64,000 bases of DNA from Owenia fusiformis (Eukaryota; Annelida; Polychaeta; Sabellida; Oweniidae), in assembly GCA_903813345.2 (NCBI GenBank), contig CAIIXF020000011.1:10450842-10514841 (forward strand). The letters are read 5' to 3'. The notes under the pieces were generated by a model. The model made no database searches, was not told where the DNA came from, and worked only from the letters and a program-made list of their open reading frames with translations. The position numbers were made by a program, and so were the translations under genes. This document shows, piece by piece, positions 241 through 39,400 of the stretch (within the stretch, counting starts at the first letter, position 1; each line of letters starts with the position of its first letter).

Positions 241-413
241 CGATTACATATAATATACAATTTTATATATTAATTCTCTGCTTTATCTTCATGAATAACA
301 CTTTACAAATTTTGTGAAACTGAATTGATCTATTTTTGGTAGGATCATCTTTTCCTACTCGATTCCTCTCGATTTTGGCTAATCACATTTCGCCTAGGAA
401 GTTAGATACTCAC

Positions 414-496
414 TTGAGAGATCCTATAATAAATCCAAGATCCTCTTCGTTCAGATACTGACTTGGATTACTAAAGGTATTTGCAAGCTGCTGCAG
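414..496 (-). CDS. ATM: ATM coding exon 18 (last in window)
   Basis: Acceptor TTTGTTTCAG, donor CTCAA|GTGAGT, starts in phase 0 and leaves 2 nt. It encodes LQQLANTFSNPSQYL and EEDLGFIIGSL, matching the vertebrate block around [20 protein letters not shown]. The next exon is not in the remaining 400 bases, which are repeat, so the gene continues to the left of the window. Confidence 0.85.
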
Positions 497-9400: not shown

Positions 9401-12400
9401 TGTTCCAATTCAATTTCCGATTCACTTAGTCGGAACCAAATGGACAGGTTTTACAGTTTAGTGAATCCATCAGCAGCTGTTCAGTGTGAGCCTGCCACAT
9501 TGCGGCTATTTTATTAAGAGCATTTGTATTAATCATTAGAACTGTAAATGAAAGTGATGAAGCCTACCGTGGATATAATTGTATATATGTTTCATTGATT
9601 CATTGAAGTTATTTGTATTTTTTAAAATGTGATTTACGAGGTAACCTTACAAGTAGAAGTGATGATAATAATTAAACAGTATATATGCCGCAACTATGTA
9701 TTTATTGAAAACCATCAATCTATTATCATAATGTGTACATATTTTCTTTATTTTAATAGGTTCTTTGGAAGAATTGACCATTAAGTCAGAAATACTGGTT
9801 AGGAAGGGTTTACGTCCAAACACAGTTAAGACATACTCGTCAAGCCAAAAAGCGTTTATGGAATTTTGCAATAAGTTTGGTTTAAATTACCTCCCAACTG
9901 AAGATGAAACACTACTACTTTTTGTTACGTTTTGCTACGAAAAAGGTTTACGACATGGTACAATTCTTAACTACTTATACGCTGTGCGTTCCCTTCACAT
10001 AGAACATGGTTTTGACCTGAACATTAATCACTCTTTTAGAATCAAACGTGCATTAAAGGCAGTATTGATGGAACAGGATAATACCAATCAAAAATCAGCT
10101 ATAACAGCAGATATTTTATGTAAAGTGGTACAAGCTCACAATTTTGTCAACGTGGATCAATTAATGTTCTGCTCAGCCATGTCGATAGCATTCTTCGGTT
10201 TACTTCGTTGCTCAGAACTTCTGAATCTCAAAAACAGTGATGTTACAATAATAAAGGCAGAAGCCAAAGTTGACAAACATATGATAGTTAAACTGAGTAT
10301 CTCAAAAACTGATTCAATAGGTAAAGGTTCAGATGTAGTGATAGGATGTACACAAAAACAGCTTTGCGCAGTTTGTTTGACAGAAAAATACTTAGAACAT
10401 AGAAGTGATAAAAATGAATCTTTGTTTGTGCTCACTAATGGGTGTTCATTAAACAGATCTTGTTTCATAGATCACGTGAAAATATCCATGGCTATGTTAG
10501 GGTATGACTCGAGTAAGTACTCGGGCCATTCGTTTAGAATTGGCGGAGCAACTTCAGGTGGCAACGTTGGTCTGAAAGACTGGGAGATAAAACCCATGGG
10601 GAGGTGGTCTAGCCAATGTTATCAACGTTATGTGCGTACATCAGTCGACTACTTGAGCAAGTTATCAGCTAAATTAACTGAATGTTGATATTAAAGGGTA
10701 TAATATTATTGAGATGTGATAGTAAGTAAGTAAGTAATTGTTGGGCGATCTTTGGGCGGTTTTTATAAAAGTGTTTATGTTCTTGTATATAATAAAGCAT
10801 CCGCTTATTTTAAGCCCAACACATTTCTTACTGTTTCAATATTTGTTATTATTTTGATATGCAATAACATTAATGGTTATTTGCTGGCAAATTGACTTTA
10901 ATGTAATGTAATGTTTGAGATAGATGTCGCATTATACATATTGCTAGTTTTTGAAATAGCCGTCAGAGGCGGGGCATAGTGAACAAAATTTTTCCACGCC
11001 CACCCACCCTGTACATGTACTTCATTAATTCATTCGACATATATTGTACAAACGTTTAAAAGGCGGTTTTTATAAAAGTGTTTATGTTCTTGTTATTTTA
11101 CGTTTACATAGTATAATAAAGCATCCGCTCATTTTAAGCCCAACACATTTCTTACTGTTTCAATATTTGTTATTATTTTGATATGCAATAACATTAATAC
11201 ATTTCGCAGACTTTCAGTGAGGAAACTTGTGACCATGTGTGGTTACATTATTAACATACATGTATTAATATAAACAAAGAAAAAAATGGCTGATGGTCAA
11301 TACATGAGAGTACGGATTTTCTGGTTTAATAATGGCACTTGAAATAAAGAATGGGCTGGGTTTGGCAAATGCATGACAAATACGCAAATTGTGGGACAGT
11401 TGGACTGCCTGTGGTTTGCTTCTACTTACAGCAAGGTGAACTGTGGAGATGAGCTGATCTAGAAGTCTATGAGGCGTGAGGCTGCGACAGAGTTCCATTA
11501 CAGCAGCAAGTCTACCAGTGCATGAACCAGTCAGAGCATTCTCTCCCCCTCTCCCTGCCAGCTCAGTTGTTCTAGGGTCCACTATTCTCCAGTCATACAT
11601 GAGACGTATTATGGGAAGTGTTGTCTTCAATGTGCTTACTGCATCACTACAGTCTACTTCCTCGCAGAGTAGCTTACTGGCTTTCTTCAAGAGACCCTAG
11701 AATCAAAGTATCATCTTTACACAGTACAAAACACATATAATGCAACTCATTTGTCACATACCGAATCATGATGTACATGATCAAAAAATTCTGAGTCCTA
11801 CAGATTTCTGTATGTTGACAAAATCAACTGATGTGAAGTCAAAACTATGATGAGGCTTTTAGATGTAGGACACAAGCATGTACAACATTTTGTATTTAAA
11901 AATGCCCTAACACGCTTCAAATTCAATCTCATTTTCAAATTTTCTTGGGGTAAACTAACCCGAAACCCCCTCAAAAATTCGCTCGCTAGTGGCATATGCT
12001 CAAAAAGTACCCACGCTACGCCACTGCCATTGATTTGATTTGATTTAAGTCAAACGTACGAGAAAAATATAATATGGTAGCTATAACCATATATATACTT
12101 TCCATATTTAGCAAAACAGGGAAAAATGTTTTAATATAGTCAATATTGATCACTTGAAAATTTAGTGCTGAATTCCAGTAGGCTGCCATCTTTTAGTATT
12201 TCACTCAGGAAGTGATGTCATCGACTCTCAACTTTGCATATAACATTATAAGGAGCTATTAAGAATTACAAAAACCAGCTGTGCATTCTTTTTCAATTTT
12301 GTCTATGATTTAATCCTTCTATAAGTCTCTTCTATTATTCTAAGCTGACAAACTCTGAAAATAATTGTGGAACAGTGAAGACCTTGTTGACGAGGCCGAG

Positions 12401-15400
12401 AAAAGATGGTGATATGCAGTTCAGTACCCAATAGTTCAAGTATGCACTCACCTTCACATAGTAGAAGAGCTCAGTTGCCATAGTTTCTTCACATGTGTGT
12501 GTACCCTCTAGGATTAACAGACCACATAGCTTTACACAGAGTGTGCAATGTTGCAGCAAGGCTTTAATGTGGGTCAAGTCTCTACCTTGGTGTGTGTGCA
12601 GTACCTGATTAATCAGTCAAATATATATATCAAGCAATGTTATATGCCAGACTTGTTTCTAATGGTCTTAAATGAAACACTTAGTGTCACACCAGTTAGT
12701 GGTCTTGTGTTCCTGGGGGATGCAAAGCTGAGTATTAATTTTACACAAAGTTGTATCAATTGGAATCCTCTGGCCAAGGTTGCATGGTTGCATTTGCAAA
12801 CTTGTATTGGCTTCAAAATGAATGTGCTGAAAGAATGGGTATGGTAACATCAGCAATAGCAGCATGATACTGTTGAAGGGAAAATACAGACACTTACATG
12901 TACATGTAGCTACTGACAAAGGACATTTACCTTGCTGTGTTTTACTAGGACTTCTTGAACCCTTTGGTATACCTTTCCCAGAATGCCATTAGCCTTGACT
13001 GATATCGGAGGCTCCTTTGTCTTGTTACCTGCACAGACAATATAGATGAGCAAGGTCTTCAAGAAACACTATCAATCAAATTGAAAGTATCAATGAAATA
13101 ACTCTTTTGAAAAAATCGATCAAATTCTTAGCATTCTTTGAAATACAGGGTGTCCGGAAAGTAAAGATACAAATGCTCTAATTTCATTAGATTTACCTGT
13201 TGTGAGATGAAATTGCTACAGATTGTAGAATGACATTGTAACAATTCATCCTGCAACTGTCATGACAAATTGTTTCAAAATAAAAAAGTTATGGTTGTTA
13301 TGGTAACAAGAGTCGCAGGTATGTGGAGCAGCGTCACAATTATGTTTTATAATTCTTTTCTCCTGTTCATATCATCTTGACGCTCCGTCGTCTGTTGCTA
13401 TTATACATCAAATTATGTACCACAACAGCAAAGGGATTAGTACTGTAACATTATTTAATCATTTGACATTACTACTGTTATCCAGTATTATGTATTTTCC
13501 ACCTTTATCTAAACATTCTTAGTGCATTTTGACCGGAGATTCAAAGACCTGACAATACCTTTGTTGTCAGTCTCGAAGATTGCTGATAACATTAGCTTCC
13601 AGCCGAGTCTCATTTTTATGTTGAACTTCTCACAAATATTGCTTTAACATATTCATTAATGTAGAAGTCCAACGGGACATTATCAGGGAAATATGGGCCA
13701 TTGTACAAAAAGGTTAATGTCAAGACATTCAATTGTAAGATTTGTTTTCTTTGGTTTGTGCATTGGAGCATTGACTGTGGAGGGGCACTATTGACTTTCC
13801 TATTAATCCAGGGACCCTTTTCTAAGCACTTATATACCCTTTTTCTTTGATTACACTTGTGACATTACATAGTTCTGATATGTATCAATGATATCGTTAT
13901 ACTAAAGAGAATACTATGGCAGCAAGAATGCAATATTGAACAAAACAAAAAACTGATAAGAAATACAATAATAAACACTATTTCAAATGGTTATATTTTA
14001 GCAATTTATCACAATTTAGCGATATCCTGGAACTGCTCCGCATACCCCTCACCACCGTAACCATGACAACCGTAACTTTAACACATTTAGACTATATGTT
14101 ATAAAAGTTGGTAGATGTATTGTAATGTAGTTCCTCTACAATCTGTAGCGATTTCATTACAAAAAAACTAAATCTCTTAAAATTAGAGTATTTGTATCTT
14201 TACTTTCCGGACACCCTGTAAAACAATATAAAGGATTGAATTTCTTACTGCTGGACATAGGAGTGTTAAACATGGCCCTTGAGTATGCAATGGTGATGTT
14301 TAGGTAACTATCCTGGCAGTGTTTAGGGTTGGTAACAAAGAGATGACTGGGAGGATTCTGCAATATGAGTGACGCAATGGCATTGGCAGTCAGCCCTATA
14401 GTTTGTGGATCCATGCAAGTAATAACTCCTCCTCCTTCTTGATATTCCTCTCTTTTGGGAAGTAACCAATCAACAAGCTGGCACCTCAATGGATAGCTCC
14501 CTCTAGTGGGCGTTGTCATGGCACTAAACATATTACATGGTTGGTTATTTTCAGGAAGAGAGTGGTGTTGAATGATATTGATGAGTACTATTTTCGCAGT
14601 AGGGTAGTCTAATAAGGAAGCTGATGAGAAGAGGGCCCAGATGTCTTTGCCTATGGTGACAAGGTTCTCTAACAACATAGCATCAAGTAATTGGAAACCA
14701 GCTTCTGCATTGTGTTGTAGACTCACAGACCTGCAATAAAGAATATTATACCTATCAAGTAAGTAAAAAATAAAAATCAGGATATTTTTTCTAAAAAGCA
14801 AGAAAATGGGGGTTGTTTGAAAAAGAAATCATGGGTTGTTTGAAAAATTGTACAGGTAGTTCTTTTTCTGGAAAATCAGGGGAAATCAGGTTTGCATAAA
14901 CTGGATGATTAACCATTTTTATATAATTTTTGATCTTGGATGACAATTTCAAACATTAAGGCTATCATAAATGTTTATCTTTCATTATATACTGGTGGTA
15001 TGATAAAAATGCAAAACATTGACAATCACACATTCACTTTACCTTATAGTTGAAGTCCATACTATTTGCCAATATGCATGGCACATTTCTACTGTGAGCT
15101 GTGACCTCTCTTGGCTTTTGCTAACTTGGCATAGGGCCTTTAGAGCCCTCATTACCCACAGGGAAACATCAGTCCTACAAGGTAAGTCTTTACATTTTAA
15201 TGTCATGTTTTGTGAATTAATTGGTTTTGTATTGCTTTTTAGCTGTATGTTAGCTTTTATTTGATTACCAAGTGTTACTCCTATTTGTTTTGTGAAGAAG
15301 TATTTATTTATTCATTTATTTATTTATTATTTATTTATTTAAAGGATGTACTATCAATGACTTAGAAAACAATGAAAATGACTTTTTTAAAGAATATCAT

Positions 15401-18400
15401 CAATTAGATTCATTTTCATCGATTAAATGCAATAAATACCATTTCACTATCTAATCAAAAATGAAAGAGCTCTATTAACAAAAGTGAAAGTATTTGGCTG
15501 TTGTTAGGAACTCCCCAAAACAAATGTCACAATGAATGTCTTCATACCATCCAAATCCAATGCATACTGATGGATATAGTCCTGAGTAAGGACATTAGTG
15601 GTTACCGTTAGTGATTTGGTTTTCTGAGAAAAAGTCATTTTCTCCTTCCCTACCCCATTGGAGCGCCATCTGGCGTTTGGGATGTGAATCGGGACTAAAT
15701 ATTTATAAGGTAGGTCCTAATTTATCTGAAAACATGTCAGAGTTCAGTGGGAAATCTCATTTTAAGCTGGCGGCGGAGTGATTTTGACCTTGGTGATTTT
15801 ACCAGAATTCTCTGAGAAATCTGACGATAGAGGGGGTTAGTGTCTTCAAGGTTATTTATTTCAAAATTTCGGTGGACAACCCATGGTAAGACTGTTATAG
15901 CAGGCTAGGCGAGTCTCTCCCGAACACTGTGGTATGTTGCACTAGGCTTGGATACTAATCGTTAAAGAGATACAGGGTAAAATGTTATAATGGCCCCCGG
16001 GGTGATTAAATGTCTGTATGTTTGTATGATTTAACGTACAAAGTGTATTATATTATGTATGAATAAGTATCAGAATAATAAATGATATTTATATTATTCA
16101 AAATATTTTATTGCAAAATTTTATAAATGTTACTTCTTTGAATTAACATTCTTTAAACTGATATATGTTATCAAGATTACGTTTTTACGAAAAATCATGG
16201 CTATGTTGAATTGAGTGGCCATGTTTAAGGCATTTAAAGCCTATAAAAGTTTAATCAAAGCAGTCAACTGGTATTGTTATAAAGTCAAAGATATTTGGAA
16301 TAATTTCAATTTGACAGACAAACAAATTTTAGGTCTTCAAACATGCTCAAATTATAAAGATGTTCTAATAGCAAGGAAAATTATCCAACTTTTCAACTAC
16401 AACAACTATTTTGGTAATATAAAAAGTGAGTTTCATAAACAAAAGATATTAAATTTGAAGACACTTTAAAAAAAAAAAAAAACTGGTATTGGAGTTAATG
16501 CCCAGACACAGGAATGGACAGATGGATGGATGGTTGGATGGATGGACAGATAGTAAGACAAGTGGGTGATAACAATAGCTCACAATGTGAGCTAATAATA
16601 CTAAATATTGTACCAACCGTTTACAGTCTGTTTGCAATGTGATGAGCATGGAGAGAGTTGACAGCTGGTTATTCTCTGAAACATTCTCTGGGTAATTCTG
16701 AAGTAAAGCACTTAGTAGTTGCAGTCTGCAATAGAAATCACATTGTAACTATCACTAAGGGGTGCATTTGTTCTGATAAAGGGTCATTGAAGGTCAAATC
16801 TCAAATCTAAAGTGAGATTTGGACTTCTGAGAACTTCGAAGTTGATTCTGAAAAAATTTGAAATCAGCCTTAACAGAACTTGATATTTGAAGTTGTAAAA
16901 ATTTGTAACAAGACTATTGCTCTCATTGGCACGTGTCTTAATTGTCTCAATAAGTGCCTCCGATTGGTACTTACCTGGGAGCCATCAACAGAAATTTTGT
17001 AAAATCCTTTGTTCTCCAACTGTAATGTCATTATATCCATTGTTACAACAATTGATTTACGAATTTGGACTTCATGAAATTTCTCTTAATGACCCCCTAG
17101 CTTAATTACCTGACTATTGCTCTCCTTGGCACCTGTCTTAATGATCCCAATGAGTATCTACCCTTTGTATTTACCTGGCTATCACCTGACTATCACTCTC
17201 CTTGGCACCTGTCTTAATGGTCCCAATGAGTATCTACCCTTGGTATTTACCTGGCTATCACCTGACTATCACTCTCCTTGGCACCTGTCTTAATGGTCCC
17301 AATGAGTATCTACCCTTGGTACTTACCTGGCTATCACCTGACTATCACTCTCCTTGGCACCTGTCTTAATGGTCCCAATGAGTATCTACCCTTGGTACTT
17401 ACCTGGCTATCACCTGACTATCAGTCTCCTTGGCACCTGTCTTAATGGTCCCAATGAGTATCTACTCTTGGTACTTACCTGGCTATCACCTGACTATCGC
17501 TCTCCTTGGCACCTGTCTTAATGATCCCAATGAGTATCTACCCTTTGTATTTACCTGGCTATCACCTGGCTATCACCTGACTATCACTCTCCTTGGCACC
17601 TGTCTTAATGGTCCCAATGAGTATCTACCCTTGGTATTTACCTGGCTATCACCTGACTATCACTCTCCTTGGTACCTGTCTTAATGGTCCCAATGAGTAT
17701 CTACCCTTGGTACTTACCTGGCTATCACCTGACTATCACTCTCCTTGGCACCTGTCTTAATGGTCCCAATGAGTATCTACCCTTGGTATTTACCTGGCTA
17801 TCACCTGACTATCACTCTCCTTGGCACCTGTCTTAATGGTCCCAATGAGTATCTACCCTTGGTACTTACCTGGCTATCACCTGACTATCACTCTCCTTGG
17901 CACCTGTCTTAATGGTCTCAATGAGTATCTACCCCTGGTATTTACCTGGCTATCACCTGACTATCACTCTCCTTGGCACCTGTCTTAATGGTCCCAATGA
18001 GTATCTACCCTTGGTACTTACCTGGCTATCACCTGACTATCACTCTCCTTGGCACCTGTCTTAATGGTCCCAATGAGTATCTACCCTTGGTACTTACCTG
18101 GCTATCACCTGACTATCACTCTCCTTGGCACCTGTCTTAATGGTCCCAATGAGTATCTACCCTTGGTATTTACCTGGCTATCACCTGACTATCACTCTCC
18201 TTGGCACCTGTCTTAATGGTCCCAATGAGTATCTTCCCTTGGTACTTACCTGGCTATCACCTGACTATTGCTCTCCTTGGCACCTGTCTTAATGGTCCCA
18301 ATGAGTATCTACCCTTGGTACTTACCTGGCTATCACCTGACTATCACTCTCCCTGGCACCTGTCTTAATGGTCCCAATGAGTATCTACGCTTGGTACTTA

Positions 18401-21400
18401 CCTGGCTATCACCTGACTATCACTCTCCTTGGCACCTGTCTTAATGGTCCCAATGAGTATCTACTCTTGGTTATTACCTGGCTATCACCTGACTATCGCT
18501 CTCCTTGGCACCTGTCTTAATGGTCCCAATGAGTATCTACCCTTGGTACTTACCTGGCTATCACCTGACTATCACTCTCCTTGGCACCTGTCTTAATGGT
18601 CCTAATGAGTATCTACCCTTGGTACTTACCTGGCTATCACCTGACTATCACTCTCCTTGGCACCTGTCTTAATGGTCCCAATGAGTATCTACCCTTGGTA
18701 CTTACCTGGCTATCACCTGACTATCACTCTCCTTGGCACCTGTCTTAATGGACCCAGGAGTATCTACCCTTGGTACTTACCTGGCTATCACCTGACTATC
18801 ACTCTCCTTGGCACCTGTCTTTAATGGTCCCAATGAGTATCTACCCTTGGTACTTACCTGGCTATCACCTGACTATTGCTCTCCTTGGCACCTGTCTTAA
18901 TGGTCCCAATGAGTATCTACCTTTGGTATTTACCTGGCTATCACCTGACTATCACTCTCAATGGCACCTGTCTTAATGGTCCCAATGAGTATCTACCCTT
19001 GGTACTTACCTGGCTATCACCTGACTATCACTCTCCTTGGCACCTGTCTTAATGGTCCCAATGAGTACCTACCCTTGGTACTTACCTGGCTATCACCTGA
19101 CTATCACTCTCCTTGGCACCTGTCCTAATGGTCCCAATGAGTATCTACCCTTGGTACTTACCTGGCTATCACCTGACTATCACACTCCTTGGCACCTGTC
19201 TTAATGGTCCCAATGAGTATCTACCCTTGGTATTAACCTGGCTATCACCTGACTAACACTTTCCTTGGCACCTGTCTTAATGGTCCCAATGAGTATCTTC
19301 CCTTGGTACTTACCTGGCTATCACTTGACTATCACTCTCCTTGGCACCTGTCCTAATGGTCCCAATGAGTATCTACTCTTGGTACTTACCTGGCTATCAC
19401 CTGACTATCACTCTCCCTGGCACCTGTCTAATGGTCCCAATGAGTATCTACCCTTGGTACTTACCTGGCTATCACCTGACTATCACTCTCCTTGGCACCT
19501 GTCTTAATGGTCCTAATGAGTATCTACTCTTGGTACTTACCTGGCTATCACCTGACTATTGCTCTCCTTGGCACCTGTCTTAATGGTCCCAATGAGTATC
19601 CACCCTTGGTACTTACCTGGCTATCACCTGACTATCACTCTCCTTGGCACCTGTCTTAATGGTCCCAATGAGTATCTTCCCTTGGTACTTACCTGGCTAT
19701 CACCTGACTATTGCTCTCCTTGGCACCTGTCTTAATGGTCCCAATGAGTATCTACCCTTGGTACTTACCTGGCTATCACCTGACTATCACTCTCCCTGGC
19801 ACCTGTCTTAATGGTCCCAATGAGTATCTATGCTTGGTACTTACCTGGCTATCACCTGACTATCACTCTCCTTGGCACCTGTCTTAATGGTCCCAATGAG
19901 TATCTACTCTTGGTTATTACCTGGCTATCACCTGACTATCGCTCTCCTTGGCACCTGTCTTAATGGTCCCAATGAGTATCTAACCTTGGTACTTACCTGG
20001 CTATCACCTGACTATCACTCTCCTTGGCACCTGTCTTAATGGTCCTAATGAGTATCTACCCTTGGTACTTACCTGGCTATCACCTGACTATCACTCTCCT
20101 TGGCACCTGTCTTAATGGTCCTAATGAGTATCTACCCTTGGTACTTACCTGGCTATCACCTGACTATCACTCTCCTTGGCACCTGTCTTAATGGTCCCAA
20201 TGAGTATCTACCCTTGGTACTTACCTGGCTATCACCTGACTATCACTCTCCTTGGCACCTGTCTTAATGGACCCAGGAGTATCTACCCTTATTACTTACC
20301 TGGCTATCACCTGACTATCACTCTCCTTGGCACCTGTCTTTAATGGTCCCAATGAGTATCTACCCTTGGTACTTACCTGGCTATCACCTGACTATTGCTC
20401 TCCTTGGCACCTGTCTTAATGGTCCCAATGAGTATCTACCCTTGGTACTTACCTGGCTATCACCTGACTATTGCTCTCAATGGCACCTGTCTTAATGGTC
20501 CCAATGAGTATCTACCTTTGGTATTTACCTGGCTATCACCTGACTATCACTCTCCTTGGCACCTGTCTTAATGGTCCCAATGAGTATCTACCCTTGGTAC
20601 TAACCTGGCTATCACCTGACTATCACTCTCCTTGGCACCTGTCCTAATGGTCCCAATGAGTATCTACCCTTGGTACTTACCTGGCTATCACCTGACTATC
20701 ACACTCCTTGGCACCTGTCTTAATGGTCCCAATGAGTATCTACCCTTGGTATTAACCTGGCTATCACCTGACTAACACTTTCCTTGGCACCTGTCTTAAT
20801 GGTCCCAATGAGTATCTTCCCTTGGTACTTACCTGGCTATCACCTGACTATCACTCTCCTTGGCACCTGTCCTAATGGTCCCAATGAGTATCTACTCTTG
20901 GTACTTACCTGGCTATCACCTGACTATCACTCTCCCTGGCACCTGTCTAATGGTCCCAATGAGTATCTACCCTTGGTACTTACCTGGCTATCACCTGACT
21001 ATCACTCTCCTTGGCACCTGTCTTAATGGTCCCAATGAGTATCTTCTCTTGGTACTTACCTGGCTATCACCTGACTATTGCTCTCCTTGGCACCTGTCTT
21101 AATGGTCCCAATGAGTATCTACCCTTGGTACTTACCTGGCTATCACCTGACTATCACTCTCCTTGGCACCTGTCTTAATGGTCCCAATGAGTATCTACCC
21201 TTGGTACTTACCTGGCTATCACCTGACTATCACTCTCCTTGGCACCTGTCTTAATGGTCCCAACGAGTATCTACCCTTGGTATTTACCTGGCTATCACCT
21301 GACTATCACTCTCCTTGGCACCTGTCTTAATGGTCCCAATGAGTATCTACCCTTGGTACTTACCTGGCTATCACCTGACTATCACTCTCCTTGGCACCTG

Positions 21401-24400
21401 TCTTAATGGTCCCAATGAGTATCTACCCTTGGTATTTACCTGGCTATCACCTGACTATCACTCTCCTTGGCACCTGTCTTAATGGTCCCAATGAGTATCT
21501 ACCCTTGGTATTTACCTGGCTATCACCTGACTATCACTCTCCTTGGCACCTGTCTTAATGGTCCCAATGAGTATCTACCCTTGGTACTTACCTGGCTATC
21601 ACCTGACTATCACTCTCCTTGGCACCTGTCTTAATGGTCCCAATGAGTATCTACCCTTGGTACTTACCTGGCTATCACCTGACTATCACTCTCCTTGGCA
21701 CCTGTCTTAATGGTCCAAATGAGTATCTACCCTTGGTATTTACCTGGCTATCACCTGACTATCACTCTCCTTGGCACCTGTCTTAATGGTCCCAATGAGT
21801 ATCTACCCTTGGTATTTACCTGGCTATCACCTGACTATCACTCTCCTTGGCACCTGTCTTAATGGTCCCAATGAGTATCTACCCTTGGTACTTACCTGGC
21901 TATCACCTGACTATCACTCTCCTTGGCACCTGTCTTAATGGTCCCAATGAGTATCTACCCTTGATACTAACCTGGCTATCACCTGACTATCACTCTCCCT
22001 GGCACCTGTCTTAATGGTCCCAATGAGTATCTACCCTTGGTACTTACCTGGCTATCACCTGACTATCACTCTCCCTGGCACCTGTCTTAATGGTCCCAAT
22101 GAGTATCTACCCTTGGTATTTACCTGGCTATCACCTGACTATCACTCTCCCTGGCACCTGTCTTAATGGTCCCAACGAGTATCTACCCTTGGTATTTACC
22201 TGGCTATCACCTGACTATCACTCTCCTTGGCACCTGTCTTAATGGTCCCAATGAGTATCTACCCTTGGTACTTACCTGGCTATCACCTGACTATCACTCT
22301 CCCTGGCACCTGTCTTAATGGTCCCAATGAGTATCTACCCTTGGTACTTACCTGGCTATCACCTGACTATCACTCTCCCTGGCACCTGTCTTAATGGTCC
22401 CAATGAGTATCTACCCTTGATACTAACCTGGCTATCACCTGACTATCACTCTCCCTGGCACCTGTCTTAATGGTCCCAATGAGTATCTACCCTTGATACT
22501 AACCTGGTTATCACCTGACTATCACTTTCCTTGGCACCTGTCTTAATGGACCCAGGAGTATCTACCCTTGGTACTTACCTGGCTATCACCTGACTATCAC
22601 TCTCCTTGGCACCTGTCTTAATGGTCCCAATGAGTATCTACCCTTGGTACTTACCTGGCTATCACCTGACTATCACTCTCCTTGGCACCTGTCTTAATGG
22701 TCCCAATGAGTATCTACCCTTGATACTAACCTGGCTATCACCTGACTATCACTCTCCCTGGCACCTGTCTTAATGGTCCCAATGAGTATCTACCCTTGAT
22801 ACTAACCTGGCTATCACCTGACTATCACTCTCCCTGGCACCTGTCTTAATGGTCCCAATGAGTATCTACCCTTGATACTAACCTGGTTATCACCTGACTA
22901 TCACTTTCCTTGGCACCTGTCTTAATGGACCCAGGAGTATCTACCCTTGGTACTTACCTGGCTATCACCTGACTATCACTCTCCTTGGCACCTGTCTTAA
23001 TGGTCCCAATGAGTATCTACCCTTGGTACTTACCTGGCTATCACCTGACTATCACTCTCCTTGGCACCTGTCTTAATGGTCCCAATGAGTATCTACCCTT
23101 GATACTAACCTGGCTATCACCTGACTATCACTCTCCCTGGCACCTGTCTTAATGGTCCCAATGAGTATCTACCCTTGGTATTTACCTGGCTATCACCTGA
23201 CTATCACTCTCCTTGGCACCTGTCTTAATGGTCCCAATGAGTATCTACCCTTGGTATTTACCTGGCTATCACCTGACTATCACTCTCCCTGGCACCTGTC
23301 TTAATGGTCCCAATGAGTATCTACCCTTGATACTAACCTGGCTATCACCTGACTATCACTCTCCCTGGCACCTGTCTTAATGGTCCCAATGAGTATCTAC
23401 CCTTGGTACTTACCTGGCTATCACCTGACTATCACTCTCCTTGGCACCTGTCTTAATGGTCCCAATGAGTATCTACCCTTGGTACTTACCTGGCTATCAC
23501 CTGACTATCACTCTCCCTGGCACCTATCTTAATGGTCCCAATGAGTATCTACCCTTGATACTAACCTGGCTATCACCTGACTATCACTCTCCCTGGCACC
23601 TGTCTTAATGGTCCCAATGAGTATCTACCCTTGGTACTTACCTGGCTATCACCTGACTATCACTCTCCTTGGCACCTGTCTTAATGGTCCCAATGAGTAT
23701 CTACCCTTGATACTAACCTGGCTATCACCTGACTATCACTTTCCTTGGCACCTGTCTTAATGGTCCCAATGAGTATCTACCCTTGGTACTTACCTGGCTA
23801 TCACCTGACTATCACTCTCCCTGGCACCTGTCTTAATGGTCCCAATGAGTATCTACCCTTGGTACTTACCTGGCTATCACCTGACTATCACTCTCCCTGG
23901 CACCTGTCTTAATGGTCCCAATGAGTATCTACCCTTGGTACTTACCTGGCTATCACCTGACTATCACTCTCCCTGGCACCTGTCTTAATGGTCCCAATGA
24001 GTATCTATGCTTGGTACTTACCTGGCTATCACCTGACTATCACTCTCCTTGGCACCTGTCTTAATGGTCCCAATGAGTATCTACTCTTGGTTATTACCTG
24101 GCTATCACCTGACTATCGCTCTCCTTGGCACCTGTCTTAATGGTCCCAATGAGTATCTAACCTTGGTACTTACCTGGCTATCACCTGACTATCACTCTCC
24201 TTGGCACCTGTCTTAATGGTCCTAATGAGTATCTACCCTTGGTACTTACCTGGCTATCACCTGACTATCACTCTCCTTGGCACCTGTCTTAATGGTCCTA
24301 ATGAGTATCTACCCTTGGTACTTACCTGGCTATCACCTGACTATCACTCTCCTTGGCACCTGTCTTAATGGTCCCAATGAGTATCTACCCTTGGTACTTA

Positions 24401-27400
24401 CCTGGCTATCACCTGACTATCACTCTCCTTGGCACCTGTCTTAATGGACCCAGGAGTATCTACCCTTATTACTTACCTGGCTATCACCTGACTATCACTC
24501 TCCTTGGCACCTGTCTTTAATGGTCCCAATGAGTATCTACCCTTGGTACTTACCTGGCTATCACCTGACTATTGCTCTCCTTGGCACCTGTCTTAATGGT
24601 CCCAATGAGTATCTACCCTTGGTACTTACCTGGCTATCACCTGACTATTGCTCTCAATGGCACCTGTCTTAATGGTCCCAATGAGTATCTACCTTTGGTA
24701 TTTACCTGGCTATCACCTGACTATCACTCTCCTTGGCACCTGTCTTAATGGTCCCAATGAGTATCTACCCTTGGTACTAACCTGGCTATCACCTGACTAT
24801 CACTCTCCTTGGCACCTGTCCTAATGGTCCCAATGAGTATCTACCCTTGGTACTTACCTGGCTATCACCTGACTATCACACTCCTTGGCACCTGTCTTAA
24901 TGGTCCCAATGAGTATCTACCCTTGGTATTAACCTGGCTATCACCTGACTAACACTTTCCTTGGCACCTGTCTTAATGGTCCCAATGAGTATCTTCCCTT
25001 GGTACTTACCTGGCTATCACCTGACTATCACTCTCCTTGGCACCTGTCCTAATGGTCCCAATGAGTATCTACTCTTGGTACTTACCTGGCTATCACCTGA
25101 CTATCACTCTCCCTGGCACCTGTCTAATGGTCCCAATGAGTATCTACCCTTGGTACTTACCTGGCTATCACCTGACTATCACTCTCCTTGGCACCTGTCT
25201 TAATGGTCCCAATGAGTATCTTCTCTTGGTACTTACCTGGCTATCACCTGACTATTGCTCTCCTTGGCACCTGTCTTAATGGTCCCAATGAGTATCTACC
25301 CTTGGTACTTACCTGGCTATCACCTGACTATCACTCTCCTTGGCACCTGTCTTAATGGTCCCAATGAGTATCTACCCTTGGTACTTACCTGGCTATCACC
25401 TGACTATCACTCTCCTTGGCACCTGTCTTAATGGTCCCAACGAGTATCTACCCTTGGTATTTACCTGGCTATCACCTGACTATCACTCTCCTTGGCACCT
25501 GTCTTAATGGTCCCAATGAGTATCTACCCTTGGTACTTACCTGGCTATCACCTGACTATCACTCTCCTTGGCACCTGTCTTAATGGTCCCAATGAGTATC
25601 TACCCTTGGTATTTACCTGGCTATCACCTGACTATCACTCTCCTTGGCACCTGTCTTAATGGTCCCAATGAGTATCTACCCTTGGTATTTACCTGGCTAT
25701 CACCTGACTATCACTCTCCTTGGCACCTGTCTTAATGGTCCCAATGAGTATCTACCCTTGGTACTTACCTGGCTATCACCTGACTATCACTCTCCTTGGC
25801 ACCTGTCTTAATGGTCCCAATGAGTATCTACCCTTGGTACTTACCTGGCTATCACCTGACTATCACTCTCCTTGGCACCTGTCTTAATGGTCCAAATGAG
25901 TATCTACCCTTGGTATTTACCTGGCTATCACCTGACTATCACTCTCCTTGGCACCTGTCTTAATGGTCCCAATGAGTATCTACCCTTGGTATTTACCTGG
26001 CTATCACCTGACTATCACTCTCCTTGGCACCTGTCTTAATGGTCCCAATGAGTATCTACCCTTGGTACTTACCTGGCTATCACCTGACTATCACTCTCCT
26101 TGGCACCTGTCTTAATGGTCCCAATGAGTATCTACCCTTGATACTAACCTGGCTATCACCTGACTATCACTCTCCCTGGCACCTGTCTTAATGGTCCCAA
26201 TGAGTATCTACCCTTGGTACTTACCTGGCTATCACCTGACTATCACTCTCCCTGGCACCTGTCTTAATGGTCCCAATGAGTATCTACCCTTGGTATTTAC
26301 CTGGCTATCACCTGACTATCACTCTCCCTGGCACCTGTCTTAATGGTCCCAACGAGTATCTACCCTTGGTATTTACCTGGCTATCACCTGACTATCACTC
26401 TCCTTGGCACCTGTCTTAATGGTCCCAATGAGTATCTACCCTTGGTACTTACCTGGCTATCACCTGACTATCACTCTCCCTGGCACCTGTCTTAATGGTC
26501 CCAATGAGTATCTACCCTTGGTACTTACCTGGCTATCACCTGACTATCACTCTCCCTGGCACCTGTCTTAATGGTCCCAATGAGTATCTACCCTTGATAC
26601 TAACCTGGCTATCACCTGACTATCACTCTCCCTGGCACCTGTCTTAATGGTCCCAATGAGTATCTACCCTTGATACTAACCTGGTTATCACCTGACTATC
26701 ACTTTCCTTGGCACCTGTCTTAATGGACCCAGGAGTATCTACCCTTGGTACTTACCTGGCTATCACCTGACTATCACTCTCCTTGGCACCTGTCTTAATG
26801 GTCCCAATGAGTATCTACCCTTGGTACTTACCTGGCTATCACCTGACTATCACTCTCCTTGGCACCTGTCTTAATGGTCCCAATGAGTATCTACCCTTGA
26901 TACTAACCTGGCTATCACCTGACTATCACTCTCCCTGGCACCTGTCTTAATGGTCCCAATGAGTATCTACCCTTGGTATTTACCTGGCTATCACCTGACT
27001 ATCACTCTCCTTGGCACCTGTCTTAATGGTCCCAATGAGTATCTACCCTTGGTATTTACCTGGCTATCACCTGACTATCACTCTCCCTGGCACCTGTCTT
27101 AATGGTCCCAATGAGTATCTACCCTTGATACTAACCTGGCTATCACCTGACTATCACTCTCCCTGGCACCTGTCTTAATGGTCCCAATGAGTATCTACCC
27201 TTGGTACTTACCTGGCTATCACCTGACTATCACTCTCCTTGGCACCTGTCTTAATGGTCCCAATGAGTATCTACCCTTGGTACTTACCTGGCTATCACCT
27301 GACTATCACTCTCCCTGGCACCTATCTTAATGGTCCCAATGAGTATCTACCCTTGATACTAACCTGGCTATCACCTGACTATCACTCTCCCTGGCACCTG

Positions 27401-30400
27401 TCTTAATGGTCCCAATGAGTATCTACCCTTGGTACTTACCTGGCTATCACCTGACTATCACTCTCCTTGGCACCTGTCTTAATGGTCCCAATGAGTATCT
27501 ACCCTTGATACTAACCTGGCTATCACCTGACTATCACTTTCCTTGGCACCTGTCTTAATGGTCCCAATGAGTATCTACCCTTGGTACTTACCTGGCTATC
27601 ACCTGACTATCACTCTCCCTGGCACCTGTCTTAATGGTCCCAATGAGTATCTACCCTTGGTACTTACCTGGCTATCACCTGACTATCACTCTCCCTGGCA
27701 CCTGTCTTAATGGTCCCAATGAGTATCTACCCTTGGTACTTACCTGGCTATCACCTGACTATCACTCTCCCTGGCACCTGTCTTAATGGTCCCAATGAGT
27801 ATCTACCCTTGGTACTTACCTGGCTATCACCTGACTATCACTCTCCCTGGCACCTGTCTTAATGGTCCCAACGAGTATCTACCCTTGGTATTTACCTGGC
27901 TATCACCTGACTATCACTCTCCCTGGCACCTGTCTTAATGGTCCCAATGAGTATCTTCCCTTGGTACTTACCTGGCTATCACCTGACTATCGCTCTCCTT
28001 GGCACCTGTCTTAATGATCCCAATGAGTATCTACCCTTGATACTAACCTGGCTATCACCTGACTATCACTCTCCTTGGCACCTGTCTTAATGGTCCCAAT
28101 GAGTATCTACCCTTGGTACTTACCTGGCTATCACCTGACTATCACTCTCCTTGGCACCTGTCTTAATGGTCCCAATGAGTATCTACCCTTGGTATTTACC
28201 TGGCTATCACCTGACTATCACTCTCCTTGGCACCTGTCCTAATGGTCCCAATGAGTATCTACTCTTGGTACTTACCTGGCTATCACCTGACTATCACTTT
28301 CCTTGGAGCCTGTCTTAATGGTCCCAATGAGTATCTTCCCTTGGTACTTACCTGGCTATCACCTGACTATCACTCTCCTTGGCACCTGTCTTAATGGTCC
28401 CAATGAGTATCTACCCTTGGTACTTACCTGGCTATCACCTGACTATCACTCTCCTTGGCACCTGTCTTAATGGTCCCAATGAGTATCTACCTTTGGTATT
28501 TACCTGGCTATCACCTGACTATCACTCTCCTTGGCACCTGTCTTAATGGTCCCAATGAGTATCTACCCTTGGTACTTACCTGGCTATCACCTGACTATCA
28601 CTCTCCTTGGCACCTGTCTTAATGGTCCCAATGAGTATCTACCCTTGATACTAACCTGGCTATCACCTGACTATCACTTTCCTTGGCACCTGTCTTAATG
28701 GTCCCAATGAGTATCTTCCCTTGGTACTTACCTGGCTATCACCTGACTATCACTCTCCTTGGCACCTGTCCTAATGGTCCCAATGAGTATCTACTCTTGG
28801 TACTTACCTGGCTATCACCTGACTATCACTCTCCCTGGCACCTGTCTTAATGGTCCCAATGAGTATCTACCCTTGGTACTTACCTGGCTATCACCTGACT
28901 ATCACTCTCCCTGGCACCTGTCTTAATGGTCCCAATGAGTATCTACCCTTGGTACTTACCTGGCTATCACCTGACTATCACTCTCCCTGGCACCTGTCTT
29001 AATGGTCCCAACGAGTATCTACCCTTGGTATTTACCTGGCTATCACCTGACTATCACTCTCCCTGGCACCTGTCTTAATGGTCCCAATGAGTATCTACCC
29101 TTGATACTAACCTGGCTATCACCTGACTATCACTTTCCTTGGCACCTGTCTTAATGGTCCCAATGAGTATCTTCCCTTGGTACTTACCTGGCTATCACCT
29201 GACTATCACTCTCCTTGGCACCTGTCCTAATGGTCCCAATGAGTATCTACTCTTGGTACTTACCTGGCTATCACCTGACTATCACTTTCCTTGGCACCTG
29301 TCTTAATGGTCCCAATGAGTATCTTCCCTTGGTACTTACCTGGCTATCACCTGACTATCACTCTCCTTGGCACCTGTCTTAATGGTCCCAATGAGTATCT
29401 ACCCTTGGTACTTACCTGGCTATCACCTGACTATCACTCTCCTTGGCACCTGTCTTAATGGTCCCAATGAGTATCTACCTTTGGTATTTACCTGGCTATC
29501 ACCTGACTATCACTCTCCCTGGCACCTGTCTTAATGGTCCCAATGAGTATCTACCCTTGATACTAACCTGGCTATCACCTGACTATCACTTTCCTTGGCA
29601 CCTGTCTTAATGGACCCAGGAGTATCTACCCTTGGTACTTACCTGGCTATCACCTGACTATCACTCTCCTTGGCACCTGTCTTAATGGTCCCAATGAGTA
29701 TCTACTCTTGGTACTTACCTGGCTATCACCTGACTATCACTCTCCCTGGCACCTGTCTTAATGGTCCCAATGAGTATCTACCCTTGGTACTTACCTGGCT
29801 ATCACCTGACTATCACTCTCCTTGGCACCTGTCTTAATGGTCCCAATGAGTATCTACTCTTGGTACTTACCTGGCTATCACCTGACTATTGCTCTCCTTG
29901 GCACCTGTCTTAATGGTCCCAATGAGTATCTACCCTTGGTACTTACCTGGCTATCACCTGACTATCAATCTCCTTGGCACCTGTCTTAATGGTCCCAATG
30001 AGTATCTACCCTTGGTATTTACCTGGCTATCACCTGACTATCACTCTCCTTGGCACCTGTCTTAATGGTCCCAATGAGTATCTACCCTTGGTACTTACCT
30101 GGCTATCACCTGACTATCACTCTCCTTGGCACCTGTCTTAATGGTCCCAATGAGTATCTACCCTTGGTATTTACCTGGCTATCACCTGACTATCACTCTC
30201 CTTGGCACCTGTCTTAATGGTCCCAATGAGTATCTACCCTTTGTATTTACCTGGCTATCACCTGACTATCACTCTCCTTGGCACCTGTCTTAATGGTCCC
30301 AATGAGTATCTACCCTTGGTACTTACCTGGCTATCACCTGACTATCACTCTCCTTGGCACCTGTCTTAATGGTCCCAATGAGTATCTACCCTTGGTATTT

Positions 30401-33400
30401 ACCTGGCTATCACCTGACTATCACTCTCCTTGGCACCTGTCTTAATGGTCCCAATGAGTATCTACCCTTGGTACTTACCTGGCTATCACCTGACTATCAC
30501 TCTCCTTGGCACCTGTCTTAATGGTCCCAATGAGTATCTACCCTTGGTACTTACCTGGCTATCACCTGACTATCACTCTCCTTTGCACCTGTCTTAATGG
30601 TCCCAATGAGTATCTACCCTTGGTATTTACCTGGCTATCACCTGACTATCACTCTCCTTGGCACCTGTCTTAATGGTCCCAATGAGTATCTACCCTTGGT
30701 ACTTACCTGGCTATCACCTGACTATCACTCTCCTTGGCACCTGTCTTAATGGTCCCAATGAGTATCTACCCTTGGTATTTACCTGGCTATCACCTGACTA
30801 TCACTCTCCTTGGCACCTGTCTTAATGGTCCCAATGAGTATCTACCCTTGGTACTTACCTGGCTATCACCTGACTATCACTCTCCTTGGCACCTGTCTTA
30901 ATGGTCCCAATGAGTATCTACCCTTGGTATTTACCTGGCTATTACCTGACTATCACTCTCCTTGGCACCTGTCTTAATGGTCCCAATGAGTATCTAACCT
31001 TGGTACTTACCTGGCTATCACCTGACTATTGCTCTCCCTAGCGTCTGTCTCAATGGTTTCCCTCAGGGCTTCCCACCCAGAGTCCAACCTTCTCTTCTTG
31101 GCAGCACCCCCAACCTGGGTCTCCAGGAAGGATGTCTGGGTTACATCAATACTAGTCACATCCTCAAGGAAAATCTGTCAACACAAAAACACATTAACAT
31201 TGACTTAAAATTACTCTTAACATCACATTTGTTCCCCTTCTTCAAAATAAAGTTTAGAAGCTTAAAGGGAATGCAAAGTTTCATGTTCTTATTTACACGC
31301 TGACTACTTATAACCATCATCTATCACTTCAGCTAACTGATATGACATATTGTGTTTGAACTAACATATAATTCAAGTTAAAAGTATATATATATATATA
31401 TATATAACAAAATTTAAATAAAAGCACAAGATGACTTCATTTTGTTGCAACTAGTTTCTTCAAATCCTCAGGCAACTGACAGAAAATTGCAGGATGACGT
31501 AATTATAATTATTATAATTAATGTCGTCATAAAATATATACCTGTGCAGGTATAATTCTAATTTATGTATGACGTCATTAATTTTACATAAGAAACCAAT
31601 GTTTCATTTTGTTGACTGACAACGAGAGAGGGATTTTTTATTTAATTTAGGTTTAAATATATTAATAAAATGTTCCTCGTATTTCAGTCTAGGTTTAAAT
31701 ATATTAATAAAATGTTCCTCGTATTTCAGTCTAAGTGTTAAATATATATATGTGGACCTTATTTACAAAAGGTGGAGTGGAGTATAGTACCAAGTGTGGT
31801 CAATAGAGGGAACATTAATCTGTCCCCGGGAGGATTTTCCCCGGGAATGTTACTATAGGTGAGTAGTTTAATCAACAAACGGCATCCTTTTCAATCCCAT
31901 CATGCATATCTTTCTTCAAATATGTACGTTTTCTGATTGGTGAATTTCTACTTGGGAAAGCACCTAATTAGTTTTGACATACAGCTCAATTCATTATCAA
32001 AGAGATTGTGATCGAGCTAATTTGTGCGTCCCGCGGTTAGCTAACAGCAATCAAAATTATATGTACACCCCAGCAATAGTTTGGCGATTGATAAATGAGA
32101 AATACGTTTTTATATATGAAGTGACTATAGGATTGATAAACCTGGTAACACGAAACTACATCATATCCCATTGTCTTTGTGTACAGACATATAAAACAGT
32201 TTTATATGTCTTTATTGTAACCTCAGGATTGTATGTGACATTTGTAAAGTGAAAATCAAAATACAATCATTCAATTTGTCACTAGCGGTAATTTAGAAGA
32301 TGTACAATGTATTATGATTGGTATCAAACCCAGGGGCTCCAAGGGGGAAAAATGAAACATTTATTCAAAGTTGATGAGGTCCCCATAGAGGTCTCGCAAA
32401 GCAATGTAATATTTGACATTTATCATTTAGAAATAACATAGTGTTACTACTTGGTGTTACTACAGCTGTACCATCGATTCTGCGAATAAGGTACGAATGA
32501 AATTGTGGTCCAATTGTTTTAAGGGATCGAGTCCCTCTGAGCAATGTTACACTCCCGGGGTTACAATTCACATTCAATTTTCAACATTTGCAAAAGCAAA
32601 AGGGGAACGCCGCATTTGCAAAAGTATTGATATTATCATTTTTCTCATGCGTCGGACAAGAATATAGTCTGGTTCCAGTGAAGATAACCCACTGACGCGG
32701 GCGGTCCTGATAAAATCAAGAGGGGCAAACCGATGAAAGACCGACAATTACAAATGAACGGGTATTTTGAAAAAAGTACTGGCGAATGGACACCTTTTCT
32801 ATAATTTATTTTAACATTTGTTTTTAAAAGGATACATTATTTTCCAATATCATACATCCCTCTATATGTTTGGTAGCCTCAACTCCAAAACGGGTTCCTT
32901 TATTTTCTGCACCTACGAACTGTCCCAATATTTTCGAAGAAGATACCAATTTTGTGTTCAATAAAGTTAAATTCAATTTTCTATTTATTAACTTATATTT
33001 TTGTTAGAACTTCGGATGGATGCATATTCTGTACTTTACATGATTTGTTGCAATTTCCTACTTATTGTAAATGGCAAAACTTAGAAAAGTGAGGAATTGG
33101 ACATCTGCAGCCCTAGAAATATTTTTTTCTCTTTACAATTCAAACATGAAAGGCGTTACCACGTAGCCCAATAGAAGGGGCTAAAGGTTGCTTTTGCGCA
33201 GGCGAATGTGCTTCTGAAATTAAACACTTTCTATTTTAAACAGGTGTCCTGAATGTCATACGTTAAGCTACATATGATAATTTTGTACCAAGGAACATAA
33301 TCTAGTCGGGATTTAAAAACGCCTCTGGTTTGGATTTTTGGTTTAAATGAAGCTGTAATTTATTCATTTAGTCACTCGCTTTTTAACCTTGGCGGAATAA

Positions 33401-36400: not shown

Positions 36401-39400
36401 GTACTTGATGTCCCATATTTGACCCCTTAAAAGATGAATTCACGCTAGATAATTGGGTCAAAATGTATTTTCCTCACTAAACACCACTTTTGCAATTGGT
36501 TTGTCTCAATTATAAGGCTCGAAGCAATCAACAAAATGAAGTCATTTAAAAAATTACTTCAAAACCATTTTTATTTATTTTTTATTATGTACCCCCTCCC
36601 CGCCTGATAGGGGTGGGGGTCAGAGACTAAAAAATCCACGAAGACCACCCCGGATCACTTGCCACGAAATCATTTTCCACTCAGATCAAGTGTTTCTACA
36701 ACTGTGCCAAGTTTGTTGCTTTCCTGGAAAGATGAACTATAAAGGGTTCATTTCTGGACATCTGACTGCGCTATATTATATTGGTCGGGTAGCAGGTTGT
36801 GCCAATTCCGGTGAGGTATTTGACTGTGTCCATCTGTGTGACTAGTGTTATCTCAAGTTGGATGAGGATTTGTTGTGTATATTGGTATGTTAGAGGTTGT
36901 ATATTGTTGGTTGTGCCTAATTGTGTTGTGTCAGTTAGTTTGACAGTCGGTTTTCTTTAAGTGTTTTTGTCTTGTATTGGTTCCGTGTCCCATTGCGTCA
37001 TGCTAATTTTATAATGGATTGTGTTCTGTTGTTGTCATGCAGCGCTGGTTGGGTAGCAGGTTGTGCCAAGTCGGATGAGGTATCTGGTTGTGTCTGATTT
37101 TGTTATTTAGTTGGCGTTGTTTACAGTTAAAGAAGGCTTTTATCGCACCTAAAAAGGTATGATATTGCCGTCAGCTTAACGGGAGGACGGCGTGCGGTTG
37201 AGGTCTCATGCACTTTCTTGTTATCACGATTCCAGGAAAATCATGAGACAGATTTACTTTAAATTTCACACATATTACATGGTAAGAAGTTCTTGAGCTG
37301 ATTAACCTTTCGGCGGCCATCTTGCATTCTGGTTGTCAACTTGGAAGTTTTTAGATATACAGTCAATGGTGTATATTTTTATGTTAAGTCAATACACACT
37401 TAGTGCAATCTTAATATTCTCAAAAGAAAATTCTACCTATAACAAAATTGTTTACGTATTTTGTAGCATAATGGAGTCACTGCATTTATGAACACTATCT
37501 AAGCCTATCTGAGTTATGACTCATAAAATTAAATATTCTACAAATTATACTTTTCACTGAATTAGTTAGTGTAAACCTAGAAATCGTTTATTTTGAAAGT
37601 GATTAAATAAAATTAATAAATGACCCTCTTTGGGATGAAAAAGGTTAATGCCTATTATTGCATTACCAAAAATTCGAATGGAGGTGGGATTTTAAAAGCT
37701 TAGACTACCGACGAATTGGAACCTGAGAGCAAACGAGGCCATTTATTTGACACTAGTTCGCAATACCATGGGCTTTCAACTAGTGAAAGCCCATGGCAAT
37801 AATAATAGCCGCAGATTGAGATGCGTTCAAAATTACGTACTTCAAAAAACGTACTGCGAAACAAAAATTATCGAAATACCGTATTCGTAAACGTAATGAA
37901 ATATACGAATACGGGTACGTTTCAGCTAACCCAAGAGGTGGGGAACCCCAAAGGCTTAGACGATACCAGACATAATTACGTATTTTGCTTGCCACCTTCC
38001 TATGACATTGTTTAAATTCTCCAGAAATGAACATTGGCCTAATATTATTCGAATCATATAAAAATTCTGAGGCTGCCATTTTTGTAGATTTTGACCATCA
38101 GAAACAAATTTACATTATAATTAAGCGTATGTCATCTTTAAACTCTGAGATTATTCCCGGGGGTTTCACTCCAATATCCCCCTATTTGGTTAACCTGTTG
38201 TGCGAAACCTCTTCATTATATCTATGATTCTGTTCCCAGAATTGACCATTTATCCAGTTCGCGAAACTGCGTTTAGTAGATTCGTTCATAATAACTAACT
38301 AACTAAGAAAGACTAGTTTTAATGAACGCATGTCCTTTAAATGACAAAGATTCCAAAGCTATTTAGAAATTCCTCTAACCCTTAGTAGATTTGTTCGGAT
38401 TTGGCGGCGTTTTAAATATCGCGGTTATGACCAGGTTACTCAGATGAACTAAGAATGACCAGTTTTGATGAAGGCAGATAGTCTGGATGTAGAGCCAGTA
38501 GAGGTGGAAATGCTTATTATATGAACTTTTTTTGCATTTTCTGTTTAAACATGATATCCATATTCAGAAACTGTCGGATGCCCATCGGGCATCCTTGAGG
38601 AATTTTTTTGGCGGCCATTTTGAATTTTCACACGTTTTATGTATTTTAGCCAGCATATTAGAACAGAAAACTAGCATACAAATAAACATATCTTGCTGTT
38701 TTTTCTATAATGGAGTTTTAATATGATGTATACCAATATGTTAGGTTCCAGAAATGTTTCTTGACAAAAATAAAAAAAAATTCAAGATGGCCGCCAACCT
38801 TACAATTTATGAAATGTCTCATTCTGTGATAATATCAAATGGATATTAGTGTTTCCTACAAAATTATCAATAAATAATACTAAATACATCTGATTATGAT
38901 CTCTTTCTCACATATAAAATATCTGAAATGAGTAAAAAGTAACCTACATAATAATAATGATGTTCCACAAGGGTCATTTCTTGGTGCTATATATATCTTG
39001 AATTTATGAATTCTCTTCTTTTACTAAGATTTCATCAAGGATTTCCCGCAATAAATCCTCATCAGTTTCTTCCAATTCCTGTTCAGTTACTGTCTTTGTA
39101 TGTTGGTTATTGCATTCATTCCCCTTGCAAACACAGAACAATGTACATGATAAAGATGCCTTCGAGCATGAACATCGCCCAGTTCTACATACCTTGCCCT
39201 CCGATGCACATGTGCACTTAGTGAGCTTGAGAATTCCTTCAGGGGCACAGGGTGTATCCTTGGGCATTGTTGTTGGGACAAGTGAGCCCGTGCTATTAAT
39301 TTCCCAACCATAATCTGTTGGAAGGATAAGTGGGGGGTCAGGCATATCAGCATTTTTCCATATAGCTACTTGGAAATGAGCTCGCTTCACATGCTGGGAA

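Follow-up and report, generated by a model that had tools for sequence, protein, structure and literature searches.

A 76-bp tandem array in intron 9 of Owenia fusiformis ATM and its probable birth from the exon 9/intron 9 junction

How does an intron come to be filled almost entirely with copies of its own 5′ splice site, and how might the gene around it live with them? This question is raised by a stretch of 64,000 nucleotides (nt) from the annelid Owenia fusiformis (assembly GCA_903813345.2, contig CAIIXF020000011.1, forward-strand positions 10,450,842 to 10,514,841), referred to below as the window, whose minus strand carries the gene of the DNA-damage kinase ATM and, in intron 9 of that gene, an array of about 14 kb built from a 76-bp unit. 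We consider it likely that the array was born locally from the exon 9/intron 9 junction and that it is near-neutral, presumably tolerated because exon 9's own donor is preferred. The locus would then show a tandem repeat caught with its seed still in place, in which the exon holds the ancestral state, and a protein-anchored exon would let the founder, the early variants and the later homogenisation be read. It also offers a natural test of splice-site choice, since one real donor and some 180 near-perfect copies of it precede the next acceptor, and loss of this gene should have consequences.

The array and its place in the ATM gene

The gene was identified with eight open reading frame (ORF) pieces of the minus strand, joined by hand in gene order (exon 8 was not located and is absent from the join), which matched human ATM chains with an E-value of 2.8e-54. 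Specifically, the joined protein of 397 amino acids aligned in two stretches, human ATM residues 114-326 and 355-531, the second of which (domain i-Evalue 7.9e-12) spans exons 9 and 10. Because single ORFs gave weak ATM matches or none (E-value of 0.6 for ORF 51021-51329; no ATM match up to an E-value of 1 and no Pfam family at 0.001 for ORF 14160-14828), the assignment rests on the join, the order of the pieces and the matches within the alignment. Judged by this homology the gene is ATM, as a preliminary description of the DNA had proposed, and the joined pieces alone are decisive.

The number of exon 9 is taken from human ATM, which we take to have its intron 9 at the same place and in the same phase; this would argue that the intron is old. 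Read directly from the sequence, exon 9 (31011-31174, −) is 164 nt long, follows the acceptor TTTTTGTGTTGACAG and, in the frame IFLEDV...SQVIA-AG, ends two bases into a codon at the real 5′ splice site CAG/GTAAGT (31005-31013, −). The start of exon 10 (16640-16725, −) follows the acceptor TTTCTATTGCAG, and a splice from exon 9 to 16725 preserves the frame. The spliced product reads SQVIAR-LQLLSALLQNYPEN and aligns with VPW-LQIATQLISKYPAS of human ATM, with no gap at the junction. The predicted intron 9, with borders read in this way, extends from 31010 to 16726 and measures 14,285 bp.

Almost the whole of this intron is a single tandem array. Tandem Repeats Finder (TRF) reported a period-76 array at 17108-31057 with 183.5 copies and 96% matches, and a wrap-around alignment resolved it into 184 rows, with row 0 holding the exon 9 unit (unit 0), rows 1 to 182 complete units and row 183 a partial unit ending at 17105. 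The array proper (17105-31010, −), the first 28 nt of which belong to unit 0, begins without a gap at the real donor and amounts to 13,906 bp, or 97.3% of the intron. Its units run head to tail and are homogeneous: the 182 complete units have a mean identity of 97.8% to the consensus, 39 are exact to it, and 54 distinct forms occur. Each unit spans the exon-intron boundary, with ~47 nt of exon and 28 nt of intron, and carries the donor, the core of which (CAG/GT) is retained in 182 of 182 aligned complete units.

A spacer of 126 bp (16979-17104, −), which at an E-value of 0.01 matched only itself in the window, separates the array end from a degraded outlying copy of the monomer (16912-16978, −). 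This copy is identical to the monomer at 55 of 67 positions (blastn 82.1% over 67 nt, E-value of 2.9e-14) and has the donor CAG/GTAAGT at its start, counted at 16974. The 3′ end of the intron (16727-16911, −) is mostly (about 16910-16777) a dispersed repeat that is also present at 58.4-59.1 kb; specifically, 16777-16910 has blastn matches at 58438-59105, the longer ones at 79-87%.

Could the array belong to a wider satellite family with further loci on other chromosomes? Short arrays near genes are common for satellite families, but the 64-kb window holds no second locus, the degraded copy at 16978-16912 being the only strong match outside the array and exon 9. An exact 22-mer of the monomer had 0 matches in viral and prokaryote collections, which says little for a eukaryote repeat. 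Taken together, we find membership in a wider family quite unlikely. The word satellite, used in the preliminary description, fits the locus as a homogeneous 76-bp tandem array, while its genome-wide sense reaches beyond the one locus found in the window.

Exon 9 as the probable seed and the growth of the array

Unit 0, the presumed seed (30983-31057, −), joins the terminal 47 nt of exon 9 to the initial 28 nt of intron 9. Compared with the array consensus, its exonic part is identical at 40 of 47 positions (85.1%) and its intronic part at 27 of 28; the 76th base of the monomer, a G where successive units meet, has no evident origin. Aligned with the monomer, the 164 exonic nt by themselves scored 59, compared with a maximum of 30 among 2000 dinucleotide shuffles. 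Exon 9 ends ETIETDARESNSQVIA-AG, and the monomer in that frame reads TIKTGAKESDSQVIA-AG. A comparison of 11 presumed exon segments, their ends approximate (8 taken from the ATM join and 3 assigned by eye), with the window at an E-value of 0.01 gave 184 non-self matches for exon 9 and zero for the other 10.

These results agree in most respects with the preliminary description, which had derived the monomer from the end of ATM exon 9 plus the start of the intron, had given the same coding-side peptide reading and had proposed a consensus alignment with exon 9, now found to stand above chance. Its figure of ~85% identity holds, and its lengths of ~50 nt exonic and 26 nt intronic are corrected to ~47 and 28 nt. 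It had the array begin gap-free at the real donor, as both the direct reading and the extent of the array confirm; of its range 17105-31174, the 17105 end is right, and 31174 marks where exon 9 begins, the array proper running from 31010 to 17105. The fill of 97.3%, the degraded copy (16978-16912) and the presence of CAG/GT in all 182 units were absent from it.

Next, we considered whether the exon gave rise to the array or the array to the exon. Apart from a gap of 2 residues, the end of exon 9 fits into the ATM alignment, and its frame continues into exon 10; because of this place and this in-frame reading, we take the direction to be from exon to array, as had been proposed. Homology to ATM continues across the exon 9-10 junction with no gap at that point, which makes the exon the older partner, and the array is probably not where the end of exon 9 came from. 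In the reverse course, a pre-existing satellite would have landed beside ATM and the end of exon 9 would have been recruited from it. The near-identity of the intronic part of unit 0 to the array (27/28) would suit such a course, as would the poor conservation with human ATM of the 16 exon codons concerned. However, the fit of the exon 9 end to the ATM alignment and the preserved frame into exon 10 speak against it, as does the lack of any strong match elsewhere in the window beyond the array apart from the copy at 16978-16912, and we regard it as extremely improbable.

The differences between unit 0 and the consensus, which fall at eight sites (7, 14, 15, 18, 20, 27, 28 and 61), bear on the order of events. 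Among the 182 units, the exon base is found in 0 at sites 7, 14 and 18, in 1 at site 15, in 43 at site 20, in 16 at site 27, in 11 at site 28 and in 2 at site 61. The exon-like bases at 27 and 28 are jointly present in 11 complete units, in the terminal partial unit and in the degraded copy, a pattern to be expected from an exonic founder and a later spread of TG; in the degraded copy, 27 and 28 alone have the exon base, the other six sites (7, 14, 15, 18, 20 and 61) having the array base. The simplest order is that early units had already diverged at the first-listed group of sites, still with CA at 27/28, and that TG spread afterwards. The idea that homogenisation halted at the exon edge was rejected, since the differences in the two parts of unit 0 (7/47 versus 1/28) gave a nonsignificant Fisher p of 0.245.

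An imperfect 11-bp direct repeat (AATAGTCAGGT/GATAGCCAGGT) makes up the end of exon 9 (31009-31030, −), and a single array unit near 17553-17587 has gained an extra 11-bp copy; this repeat is a possible slippage seed.

In the origin that we favor, a segment of ATM made up of ~47 nt from the end of exon 9 and ~28 nt from the adjoining start of intron 9 would have been duplicated locally in tandem. The array would then have expanded to 97% of the intron through unequal exchange or replication slippage, involving single units as well as blocks of up to about 50 units. Blocks of this kind are found in the array as assembled. Two exact copies of 3,078 bp (26975-23898 and 22798-19721, within 19721-26975, −) stand at a lag of 4,177 bp, or 55 units, and comprise 40 consecutive identical units with 0 differences in 3,040 aligned positions. 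An exact pair of 1,279 bp (27805-26527 and 24007-22729, −) stands at a lag of 3,798 bp, or 50 units, with 16 consecutive identical units and 0 differences in 1,216 positions, and there is an exact 5-unit run at lag 5. Exact runs of 40, 16 and 5 units are the pattern left by unequal exchange or block amplification, although assembly error could mimic the longer two.

Since these runs lack any later change, they point to either very recent block duplication or assembly error, and the present length of the array may therefore be of very recent origin or in part an artifact of assembly. The preliminary description had the array "kept" inside the gene, a wording that we do not retain, as the array gives no clear indication of function and contains an internal block that is exactly duplicated. 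On the assembly side, a block of ~50 units may have been written twice, or two haplotypes may have been placed end to end, and the exact runs at lags 55 and 50 are what such an error would leave. The existence of the array is independent of a block error, however, as 54 distinct forms occur among its 182 units; a block pair at lag 20, with 30 differences over 1,368 positions, seems to be older; and both array edges are anchored in non-array ATM sequence. That the size is wholly or partly an assembly error is thus unlikely, albeit with enough weight to be kept in mind.

Decoy donors and signs of selection

A string search of intron 9 revealed 180 CAG/GTWART donors, 179 in the array and 1 in the degraded copy. 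By direct string count, the array donors read GTAAGT (113), GTAAAT (40), GTTAGT (23) and GTTAAT (3); full CAG/GTAAGT sites number 113 by string search and 114 by aligned rows, a unit with an 11-bp insertion being read differently. Splicing from any decoy to exon 10 is predicted to give an identical protein end, SQVIAR-stop, in 180 of 180 cases. Decoy use would extend exon 9 by 76-nt steps and terminate the protein immediately at VIAR-stop, so that some failed transcripts, at a low level, are to be expected.

Either the real donor would almost always be chosen, or ATM from this allele would be largely lost. We infer the former, with the donor chosen via exon definition from the acceptor that lies 164 nt upstream: having an acceptor of its own, exon 9 would use the first donor met, whereas the repeats would be donors without a clear preceding acceptor, and ATM would still be produced. 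If ATM is indeed spliced correctly, the sequence and number of donors must count for less than position and exon definition. A possible cryptic exon of 45 nt is present in intron 9 at 16975-17019 (−), running from ATTACAG to CAG/GTAAGT (SWRTKDFTKFLLMAP); it is in frame and open between exons 9 and 10, and could easily be due to chance.

We also explored whether RNA structure might hide the decoys and rejected this idea. Against plain shuffles, a 150-nt two-unit RNA was unusually stable (z = −2.64, 2/200 as stable; single unit, z = 0.28), and in two-unit DNA folding the minus strand reached z = −2.05 (7/200) and the plus strand z = 1.28, but the structure was not unusual against shuffled monomers made tandem (35/400 for two units, 12/150 for four). 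In the same kind of control, 224 of 1000 self-duplexes were as good. The probability that 9 nt are unpaired was 0.0021 at the real donor and 0.0012 at the median decoy, which leaves the real donor mildly more open than 136 of 179 decoys. The window contained no Rfam match at the gathering score that would indicate an RNA gene, and a scan of 101 bases for bacterial promoters and terminators had no bearing on this locus.

Signs of selection on the array are weak and mixed. Coding constraint on the units is ruled out by the even spread of variant states over codon positions 1, 2 and 3 in the exon-like part (6/8/7). Donor position +5 is altered in 45 of 182 units and position +3 in 26 of 182; since both are among the three most variable of the 76 sites, the full donor is not conserved. 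This variability bears on two selective readings. In the first, the decoys are tolerated but selected against and slowly weakened, with +5 G>A and +3 A>T spreading by lowering mis-splicing. The rank of +5 and +3 would fit it (the chance that at least two of the top three sites fall in +3 to +6 is 0.006, in a post hoc test), as would the string counts of 113 GTAAGT, 40 GTAAAT, 23 GTTAGT and 3 GTTAAT. However, GT, the easiest site to destroy, is unbroken in 182/182 aligned units, and the variant frequencies are set by block duplication and not by independent mutations, so that we hold gradual weakening to be distinctly unlikely.

In the second, the array is functional, and its ~180 donors would bind U1 small nuclear ribonucleoprotein or compete with the real donor, tuning ATM through VIAR-stop in a manner dependent on copy number. 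The retention of CAG/GT in 182/182 units, the 180 usable-looking donors with one common stop and the sense orientation directly behind the real donor would all suit such a role. Yet +3 and +5 are highly variable (26 and 45 of 182), and RNA folding does not clearly separate the real donor (136/179 decoys below it); a functional decoy array therefore appears improbable. The more specific proposal of an adjustable ATM brake, a copy-number-variable decoy bank in which array length sets decoy use and unequal exchange tunes kinase dose, is very improbable.

Local birth followed by near-neutral tolerance, by which the array would be without selected function, draws on features that are directly observed, namely unit composition, phase, donor-side position, the block duplications as assembled and the lack of coding constraint. 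Several points nevertheless weigh against it. The exon 9-10 join in the ATM query was entered by hand, exon 9 as a lone protein query did not match ATM (its sole match was an unrelated bacterial protein with an E-value of 8.1), and the 16 exon 9 codons that fall within the monomer show, as said, poor conservation with human ATM. The decay of useless sites might be expected to break some CAG/GT cores, of which none is spoiled; the invariance of these five sites has a chance of 0.041, given 41 of 76 invariant sites. The exon-like parts are somewhat less variable (22/45 variant states on 48/76 sites, p = 0.062). Both array edges are less variable than the middle (mean mismatches per unit: 0.79 for units 1-14 on the exon 9 side, 1.07 for units 169-182 on the far side and 1.77-1.83 in the middle), whereas the usual picture is one of decayed edges. 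The array AGs have at most 11 pyrimidines in the 20 upstream positions, equal to the exon 10 acceptor (11) and below the exon 9 acceptor (13), and the argument that array donors lack a clear preceding acceptor is weak. Finally, correct splicing of ATM is an assumption, and the gene could be impaired.

Neighboring features and comparison with known systems

Other repeats and ORFs are present in the window. A retrotransposon-like run at 6764-10685 (+), presumably inside the ATM gene, includes RVT_1 matches at 8130-8540 (E-value of 5.4e-08) and, weaker, at 8544-9182, followed by a tyrosine-recombinase-like ORF at 9732-10685 (Phage_integrase, E-value of 1.9e-05, below the curated cut-off); we take this order, reverse transcriptase and then tyrosine recombinase, to fit DIRS/Ngaro elements. 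Two near-identical cysteine-rich ORFs, at 39007-39465 (−) and 39855-40322 (+), lie in opposite directions 389 bp apart (144 identical, 9 different and 3 gapped residues) and look like an inverted pair or a mobile element; ORF 39007-39465 had no Pfam match. A second tandem array at 62620-63855 has a 93-bp unit in 13.5 copies, with overlapping period-277 and period-370 readings (TRF), and tandem repeats of 128-291 bp at 1334-2445 and 3126-3592 have, by eye, a common core in at least two places.

Among the literature matches listed, which cover the field in part, there was neither an array in ATM nor a large satellite that had started from an exon-intron junction. Minisatellites that carry donors and tandem duplications of AGGT are already in print, none of this size and place among the matches listed. 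The donor-repeat transcript is reportedly that of human 6-16 (G1P3, IFI6), in which the unit is said to be short, in few copies and defined by its crossing of the exon-intron boundary. In contrast to the short unit and few copies reported for IFI6, the array described here has a 76-bp unit, 182 copies and 14 kb, and lies in ATM. The likeness is that a tandem repeat furnishes multiple donors, the title of the interferon paper naming a repeat that supplies several splice donors in one interferon-induced transcript.

The protein alignment of ATM, compared with human ATM only, continues through the exon 9-10 junction, and intron 9 is presumably old, going by the human gene; it would have been filled from the donor side, with no intron newly made. 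This would set the locus apart from the accepted tandem-duplication route of intron gain (Rogers), with which it shares a duplicated AGGT or boundary segment retained inside the gene. In that route, as excerpted from PMC4974935, AGGT or boundary-crossing gene segments are duplicated in tandem and kept in the gene, with ATP2A1, a potato RNA-dependent RNA polymerase (RdRp) gene and a fission yeast 24-bp AGGT segment in several copies as cases. Copy number in ATM is far above the two to four duplicates given there.

Satellite DNA within introns of expressed genes is also found in Drosophila kl-3 and kl-5. Their intron satellites reportedly do not derive from the host gene's own splice junction. 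In the part of PMC6508621 at hand, these satellite-containing introns are described as gigantic; they are megabase-sized, compared with 14,285 bp for ATM intron 9. More generally, satellites can arise from any sequence, with ribosomal DNA (rDNA) spacer and transposons as the seeds named in the excerpt of PMC5615363. The ATM array resembles those satellites in being a tandem repeat from a non-satellite seed, but here the seed would be a protein-coding exon-intron junction, to which the array is still attached.

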